A stretch of DNA of 64,000 nucleotides. It comes from Chloranthus sessilifolius. Taxonomy: Eukaryota; Streptophyta; Magnoliopsida; Chloranthales; Chloranthaceae. The notes under the pieces are model-generated. The model was not told the origin of the DNA and did not search any database. It saw nothing but the letters and a program-made list of their open reading frames with translations. Numbering within the stretch: position 1 is the stretch's first letter; every line of letters begins with the position of its first letter. Location: NCBI GenBank assembly GCA_021018995.1, contig CM037588.1, positions 146,091,725 through 146,155,724 of the forward strand, given 5' to 3'. The position numbers and the translations under genes were made by a program. Positions 17,601 to 19,133 of this stretch are shown one piece after another.

Positions 17601-18999
17601 ATGTCTTCTAGAGGAAGGGGCCGACCCAGGGGCGGCCATAGTAGAAGCTTGTGTAGTCGAGATGATTTCATCTCGGATACCAATAGAGTACCCATAGGAG
17701 ATGGAGGGGCTTCTGGCAGTGGTGGCCAAGGAAGCCAAGATCAAGAAGAGAATCGTGATCGAGATCATCAGGATTAAGATCAAAGAGAGCAAGAAAGAAT
17801 TAGAGAGCAAAATGAGGATAAAGAAGAGCGTCAGAGGATGATGCACACCATGGAGACCATGGCGGTTGCCATGGCACAATACACAAAGATCTTTGGCGCT
17901 CACACTCATGAGCGATCACCAAGACACCTCCAAGAGCTCCGCCACGCCAAAGATCTTTAGCATTCACTGAGTTTAGGAGGATGAGACCTCCTAGTTTTTC
18001 TGGACAGGGAGAGCCCATAGTGGCAGAGCATTGGCTGAGCGAGATGGAGAAGGTGTTCAGTGTGCTCACTTGTACCGAGGACGAGAGCGTCCGTTGGGCA
18101 GCCTATATGTTGGACGGGGAGGCTGGGCCTTGGTGGAAGTTCGTTTCACGGACTAGGGCTCAAGAGACTCCGAATTTTCCCTGGACTTGGGATGAGTTCG
18201 TCGAGGAATTCAATAAACAGTACTTCCTTGAGGTGGTGAGGAACCAAATGGAAATCCAATTTCTACAGCTTACTCAGGGGAAAATGATAGTGAGAGACTA
18301 TGGAGTAGAATTTATGCGACTCGCTCGCTTTACACCCGACTATGTCATCACCGATATGATGAAAGCAAAAAGGTTTCAACAAGGTTTGAAGCCGGACATA
18401 CGTCGTTCCAACTAAGGACCTATGGGGAGGTCATGAGTAAAGCCCTGGTGGTAGAGGAAGAAAATACCAACAAGTACCGTCAGAGGGAGCAACAAGGAAG
18501 GTGGAACAGTGATCAGAGCAGAACAGGAAATTATGAACCGGTGAACAAAAAGCCGAGGTTCATACCAAACAATCAGAAACCACCTTTTCAAGGAGGCTAT
18601 GGAAGACCGACGCAGTAGAGCAACCAGCAGAGATTTCCATTACTCGCGTCGGGGAGACCGATACGCTACGAGAGCCCTGCGATTACTACAGGCACTACAG
18701 TCACACAAGGGGCTTCTCGAGCAGCTTCTTCCACGCCACGTGAGACTTGTGCCAAGTGTGGCAAGCCTCACAAGACAGCGGACTGTAGGGTAGGCACTCG
18801 GGGTTGCTTTCGATGTGGCAAGGTGGGCCACTTTATTAGGGAATGCCCTGAGATGAACAAAGGGAAGACAGCTTCAGTACCTATTCCACGACCGATACAA
18901 GCAAGGAAGCCGATCGTCCAAGGAAGAGCCTACGCAGTCACAGCTCAAGAGGCTCAGAACACGAACGATGTCATTCAAGGTGAGCTTTCTTTTAAATAA
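17601..18999 (+). pseudogene. Gag of element D with two zinc knuckles
   Basis: Starts ATG TCT TCT AGA (MSSRGRGRPRGG) and runs, with frameshifts near 17930 and 18415 and stops near 17776 and 18616, to TAA 18997-18999. The Gag core (17981-18415) has WAAYMLDGEAGPWW, TWDEFVEEFNKQYFLE and DYGVEFMRLARF. Two zinc knuckles follow: CAKCGKPHKTADC (18748-18786, C-X2-C-X3-H-X4-C, one residue short) and CFRCGKVGHFIREC (18805-18846, C-X2-C-X4-H-X4-C). They bind the RNA for packaging. The last seven codons before the stop lie inside the intron-like interval 18980-19133, so this end is the unspliced form. Confidence 0.9.
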
Positions 19000-19133
19000 A
19001 GAATTCCGATTCTTCTAATTTTAGATAGAGAAGGTGCATCTATATTTAGAAAACATAAGAAAAAGCTTACATGTGATAAATTCTAGTATAATGATAATAA
19101 ACAATATATATATATATGTGTATGTATAATTAG
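18980..19133 (+). other. Candidate intron between gag and protease, element D
   Basis: The 154-bp interval starts CAAG|GTGAGC and ends TATAATTAG|GTGG, is strongly AT-rich and has CTAAT at about 19014 as a possible branch point. Read through, gag ends GELSFK-stop. Removed, the frame joins as VIQ-G-GLHIYKKG and runs into the protease. B has an interval of 147 bp at the same codon (28629-28775) with the same read-through end (GEIPFK-stop). This supports real splicing, but there is no transcript evidence here. Confidence 0.75.

Follow-up and report, generated by a model that had tools for sequence, protein, structure and literature searches.

Several plant long terminal repeat (LTR) retrotransposons are known to use splicing in separating Gag from Pol. 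The mechanism by which those with a single frame make Gag in excess over Pol is poorly understood; the accounts below follow the portions of the cited reports available to us. In Ogre, of the Tat lineage of Ty3/gypsy, some of the transcripts lose a short intron between two coding parts of the polyprotein, which makes the downstream Pol readable (PMC6317226). In BARE1 of barley (Ty1/copia), the choice between Gag and Pol depends on a small U-rich intron of 104 nt at the end of gag (PMC3735527), and in EVD/ATCOPIA93, with its shGAG RNA, splicing together with premature polyadenylation separates Gag and Gag-Pol mRNAs (PMC8892269; PMC12786077). Spliced transcripts are also reported for the rice chromovirus CRR (PMC3735527), and Bianca (Ty1/copia) has two open reading frames (ORFs) about 172 bp apart (PMC6317226). 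Here we describe an interval of about 150 nt lying exactly between gag and protease in two related LTR retrotransposons, the chromovirus D and its older host element B, in a 64-kb stretch of contig CM037588.1 of Chloranthus sessilifolius (hereafter the window). We consider it likely that this interval is a retained, regulated spliceosomal intron, which is the best reading of the sequence.

A 2025 review describes plant LTR elements as generally intron-free and names Ogre and EVADE as the exceptions (PMC12786077). Our literature searches returned no title or abstract start describing a chromovirus with an intron between its gag and protease, which is not proof of its absence in print, and the accessible part of a mulberry study (PMC6523491) held nothing on point. 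In sugar beet, representative chromoviruses, including a Tekay one, were picked for an intact ORF (PMC3605345), and in sunflower, splicing isoforms are described for Copia elements, with Tekay missing from the expressed set (PMC7730604); both statements refer to the portions available.

The interval between gag and protease

The first-pass annotation had placed a GTGAG...TTAG interval of 154 nt in D, with gag ending in GELSFK-stop, and a 147-nt counterpart at the same codon of B, with GEIPFK-stop and an in-frame join. The D interval is confirmed to the base (18980-19133), and so is that of B (28629-28775). In both elements it sits after CAA-G and before GT at the gag/protease boundary, the junctions reading GTC ATT CAA G/GTGAGC...ATAATTAG/GT GGA TTA in D and GTT ATC CAA G/GTGAGA...GTTATAG/GT ACT TTA in B (slashes mark the interval borders), with phase 1 on both sides in each case. 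Without splicing, gag ends six codons into the interval, as VIQGELSFK-stop in D (TAA at 18997-18999) and VIQGEIPFK-stop in B (TAA at 28646-28648). A blastn-short search of the window for a third copy of the interval found none.

Frameshifting and stop readthrough are the usual routes by which retroelements set Gag against Gag-Pol. Frameshifting is also named as such a route in the accessible text of PMC12786077, and a programmed event of either kind across the interval could in principle replace splicing. The reading frames leave this only the slightest probability. In D, the protease is in another frame than gag, and three stops (19016, 19022 and 19127) interrupt the pol frame within the interval, which rejects a frameshift, and in B, where gag and protease share one frame, that frame is closed by four stops (28646, 28664, 28676 and 28691), which rejects readthrough; moreover, the lengths of 154 and 147 nt differ by 7 nt, so that their remainder modulo 3 is not kept. 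For D and B as they stand, recoding thus appears already refuted, unless decay in both copies hid an open frame. With frameshifting impossible in D and readthrough in B, splicing at the strong donor common to both would be the simplest route to Pol.

The window contains ten instances of the MAG/GTRAG consensus on its + strand and three on its - strand, and both donors match it. Scanning for in-frame GT-AG pairs gave 10 in D and 19 in B, and a consensus 5′ site is present only in those that use this donor; the best-fitting pairs were 18980/19133 and 28629/28775, respectively. The acceptor reads as YAG-type in both copies, with phase 1 kept. A 46-nt stretch ending at the first TTTTAG was also considered as an intron and dropped, since plant introns have a minimum length and 46 nt falls below it. 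The interval has a GC content of 0.227 in D and 0.218 in B, as opposed to 0.43-0.51 in the 180-nt flanks, and a T content of 0.36 and 0.41, as opposed to 0.18-0.29. With its GT...AG ends and consensus donor, its phase, its A+U-richness and its usual length, the candidate agrees in these respects with a U2-type plant intron, and its low-GC, U-rich composition agrees with the plant-intron rule as quoted in PMC3735527 (portion available).

RNA structure was considered as well. Both 76-nt folds around the donor pair it, as a hairpin hiding the donor would, but the folds are not significant (z = -1.64 in D and -0.54 in B); the predicted folds of the whole interval are unlike each other in D and B, and a comparison of positions 18700-19400 with Rfam gave nothing at E values up to 1.

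Conservation, age and relatives

The 5′ 55 bases, including the stop, had been described as well conserved and the rest as drifted, and the alignment agrees: identity between D and B is 46/55 over the first 55 nt and 50/61 over the first 61, compared to 52/85 aligned positions in the remainder and 22/32 in the last 35 nt. With the third-position identity of 0.53 as the expectation, the 50/61 has p = 2e-6 and the remainder p = 0.16. The 5′ 61 nt are conserved at the level of coding sequence and not exceptionally, with 706 of the other 3097 windows of this length in the aligned coding sequence of D and B equally or more conserved. Most of these 61 nt, however, lie 3′ of the Gag stop, where there is no coding in any of the three frames, and their extent exceeds the need of splice sites alone. 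Conserved ends with a drifting middle form the pattern that a functional intron would give.

In both copies an AATAAA covers the Gag stop, within the conserved part, and 10-25 nt past it lies a U-rich stretch with TA. Plant polyadenylation sites are built in this way, from an AATAAA with a U-rich stretch downstream. A tentative refinement of the intron reading, overlapping it and counted apart, would therefore set splicing against premature polyadenylation within the intron: the latter would end a short Gag mRNA, splicing would give Gag-Pol, and RNA escaping both would serve as the genome. Splicing-coupled premature polyadenylation does yield the Gag mRNA of the Copia element EVD, according to the available portion of PMC8892269, but there Gag comes from the spliced form, and AATAAA is frequent in A+T-rich DNA, D containing another at 19096. 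As a speculative possibility, the roughly 150 nt would form a compact RNA switch with three outcomes (splice, polyadenylate or escape), gained in an ancestral single gag-pol frame and kept across near-saturated synonymous divergence.

The age of the D/B split bears on whether the interval has been compatible with function. From the protease onward (243 codons), amino-acid identity is 0.63, third-position identity 0.53, synonymous divergence (dS) 1.39 and the ratio of nonsynonymous to synonymous divergence (dN/dS) 0.19; the ratio is 0.06 in the N half of the capsid, 0.28 in the RNase H piece, and 0.12 and 0.04 in two integrase pieces. The dS is at least 1.0 in all five pieces with a dN/dS, although the integrase piece with 0.04 has an unreliable dS of 3.4. 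D and B are thus old relatives whose gag and pol pieces have been under purifying selection after the split. Since this selection acted in both lineages with the interval already present, pol must have been expressed past it for a long time.

The sequence AGGT is repeated at the interval borders, at 18978-18982 and 19132-19136 in D (where it extends to AGGTG) and at 28627-28630 and 28774-28777 in B, as if a proto-splice site had undergone an insertion or a duplication from which the intron arose. The repeats, together with the decay of both copies, would also suit a dead insertion, in which a small element duplicated AGGT and disabled D and B, which then moved with help in trans. We regard this as unlikely, because unexpressed pol would not be kept, while the interval is common to two families near synonymous saturation, in which dN/dS ranges from 0.04 to 0.28 across five pieces of gag and pol, and its 5′ part is more conserved than third positions.

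Reinitiation or internal entry, with Pol starting at an AUG 3′ of the Gag stop on unspliced RNA, has in-frame AUGs at its disposal in D (19166, and also 19091, whose frame ends at the 19127 stop) and in B (28742 and 28763). Their places differ between the two elements, however, and in D out-of-frame AUGs at 19071, 19116 and 19122 precede the one at 19166. Reinitiation in plants is inefficient once several hundred codons have been translated. As such a route also leaves the splice-like ends and the 5′ conservation unexplained, we consider it quite improbable.

Relatives without the interval were sought among homologs of the D protease piece (7975 in all), the comparison being made with the best 120 of these. 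A homolog was scored as two-sided when it aligned to both the Gag tail (score >45) and the protease piece (score >70). With D, 32 of the 120 align on both sides, the two alignments lying from 9 residues apart to overlapping by one; with B, 30 of the 120 do so, from 7 residues apart to 6 overlapping. The other 88 and 90, respectively, were under the set scores, many of them starting behind the site. The shared text of the homologs resembles 'RVFALTQQDAE..VVxGTLxI....ARVLIDPGSTHSF', and the interval sits between 'DVIQ' and 'G(G/T)L'. An alignment-based search of genome contigs gave five loci, L001-L005. In three of them, L002 (ORF 1038-5552, 1504 residues), L003 (1669-6186, 1505 residues) and L005, the frame continues over the site with no interval, and L002 and L003 are near-identical there. 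L004, which is open too, is distant at 23% identity, and the sequence of L001 begins only past the site. Because the two-sided homologs are contiguous and the three plant-like DNA loci read through, the interval is the derived state. Relatives in which it is present, open and in frame, a finding that would have spoken against splicing, were looked for and not found; those recovered lack it altogether.

All five loci come from contigs filed as bacterial genomes and encode a Ty3/gypsy-like protease and reverse transcriptase; L002, L003 and L005 are plant-like, and the loci apparently represent host-plant contamination in bacterial assemblies. A degenerate pattern of the 5′ part of the interval had 0 matches in viral contigs and 0 in genome contigs. 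Within the length window of the search, the Gag tail of D gave 9 candidates and that of B 147, none a homolog at E <= 0.001. The D protease had no homolog in viral contigs, where the alignment-based search likewise gave none. The span between the junction Gly and the catalytic Asp counts 21 residues in both D (19134-19193) and B (28776-28835), as opposed to 15 in homologs such as P0007, P0025 and P0031, which points to a lengthening specific to this lineage at the very beginning of the exon.

Several observations weigh against an intron. The in-frame join is weak evidence and no independent proof, because any AGGT-duplicating insertion would leave the same join when removed. A YTNAN branch point is absent from the last 65 nt of the D interval; in B there are four matches, with the A at -41, -42, -47 and -55. 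Only two copies, D and B, are available, both decayed with frameshifts and stops in gag, and in the C half of the capsid and the Gag tail the proportion of synonymous differences is saturated, leaving dN/dS undefined. Finally, many of the homologs are gene models or predicted ORFs, in which contiguity of the protein is by itself no proof of contiguity in the DNA. The proposal of an intron kept in two chromoviral lineages is nevertheless well supported, if indirectly, by the splice signals, composition, length, derived insertion, persistence alongside selection and failure of the recoding rivals.

Elements D and B and their surroundings

The window is plant DNA with many LTR retrotransposons (Table 1). 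D is flanked by a 5-bp target duplication, AGTTT, at 14974-14978 and 27846-27850. Between its LTRs the domain order is Retrotrans_gag, zf-CCHC, RVP_2, RT_RNaseH, SH3_Tf2-1 and Chromo, and both the chromodomain and this order identify D as a chromovirus, that is, a Ty3/gypsy element with a chromodomain.

Table 1. Positions of the candidate introns, their signals and the parts of elements D and B in the window
Feature	Position	Strand	Detail
Candidate intron of D	18980..19133	+	154 nt, GTGAGC...AATTAG
Candidate intron of B	28629..28775	+	147 nt, GTGAGA...TTATAG
D donor	18977..18985	+	AAG/GTGAGC
B donor	28626-28634	+	AAG/GTGAGA
Conserved 5′ part of D interval	18980..19040	+	50/61 identical to B
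AATAAA over Gag stop, D	18995..19000	+	TAA 18997-18999
AATAAA over Gag stop, B	28644-28649	+	TAA 28646-28648
Last pol-frame stop in D interval	19127-19129	+	TAA, directly followed by acceptor end TTAG (19130-19133)
Element D	14979..27845	+	nested in gag of element B
D 5′ LTR	14979-17497	+	92% identical to 3′ LTR
D 3′ LTR	25317-27845	+	
D primer-binding site	17500-17511	+	TGGTATCAGAGC, read from sequence
D capsid piece of Gag (PF03732)	17912..18412	+	frame differs from Gag tail: decayed copy
D Gag tail with CCHC knuckle	18619..18996	+	C-terminal end VIQGELSFK-stop
D protease (RVP_2) and start of reverse transcriptase	19134..19987	+	frame open from 19130; RVP_2 E = 3e-24
D integrase C-terminus with chromodomain PF00385	22135..22548	+	25.7 bits, cut-off 25.1
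Element B	11915..36193	+	older host of D; gag split by D
B LTRs	~11915-14283 and 33852-36193		89% identical; blastn limits
B primer-binding-site-like sequence	14288	+	TGGTATCAAAGT, read from sequence
B protease (RVP_2)	28776..29506	+	frame open from 28694; RVP_2 E = 1.1e-24

Between pol and the 3′ LTR, both elements have an extra open frame (23520-24224, 235 residues, in D; 31967-32527, 187 residues, in B), possibly a captured ORF, whose only match, to PF20167 ('putative plant transposon protein'), stays below the threshold at E 0.03 and 0.09. Elsewhere in the window there is a further LTR pair, 89% identical (38912-41017 and 50098-52157), and an inverted pair of coding stretches, 79% identical (4-4644 and 52164-56770), the copy at 52-57 kb having reverse transcriptase and integrase matches. 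Long frames overlap on both strands at 47055-48158, with 367 residues on the - strand and 192 and 129 on the + strand; the 367-residue frame has no Pfam match.

A possible Gag/Gag-Pol switch and its described counterparts

Under the intron reading, an ancestor common to the two chromoviral families would have acquired the intron within an uninterrupted gag-pol frame, and its descendants would have maintained it as a switch. Gag would be translated from unspliced RNA, with the stop six codons into the intron; this RNA would also serve as genomic RNA, and because of this the intron would survive reverse transcription. The spliced fraction would join DVIQ to G(G/T)L to give Gag-Pol, and the conserved first 61 nt would probably hold cis signals keeping splicing partial. 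The assignment of Gag to unspliced and Gag-Pol to spliced RNA, as first proposed, follows from the frames, while the occurrence of splicing, its partial nature and the role of the conserved part are what we infer from the sequence. The further suggestion that the intron replaced a frameshift finds no counterpart in the relatives, since L002, L003 and L005 run straight from gag into protease. If the reading is correct, an intron exactly between gag and protease would be an RNA-level switch for a chromovirus. Its gain would also be open to dating, and would have taken place in a selfish element that has to keep the intron from being lost through reverse transcription.

By analogy, the interval would likely work as the Ogre intron does. 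The elements are, however, not members of Ogre, in which the intron lies between PROT and RT (reverse transcriptase), whereas here 147-154 nt lie between GAG and PROT of a chromodomain element. A chromoviral comparison is offered by CRR, which we take to belong to the CRM clade. In the accessible account, CRR splicing removes rt and is not at gag/protease (PMC3735527). Bianca, for its part, is a Copia element. BARE1 follows the reverse logic, in that splicing gives a Gag-only RNA and the unspliced RNA is Gag-Pol (PMC3735527), and in EVD, which likewise belongs to Copia, the protease is spliced out and Gag comes from the short RNA that is spliced and prematurely polyadenylated (PMC8892269), both as given in the portions available. 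The arrangement in D and B, if confirmed, would thus be a solution that arose outside the Tat lineage, with its logic reversed relative to BARE1 and EVD.
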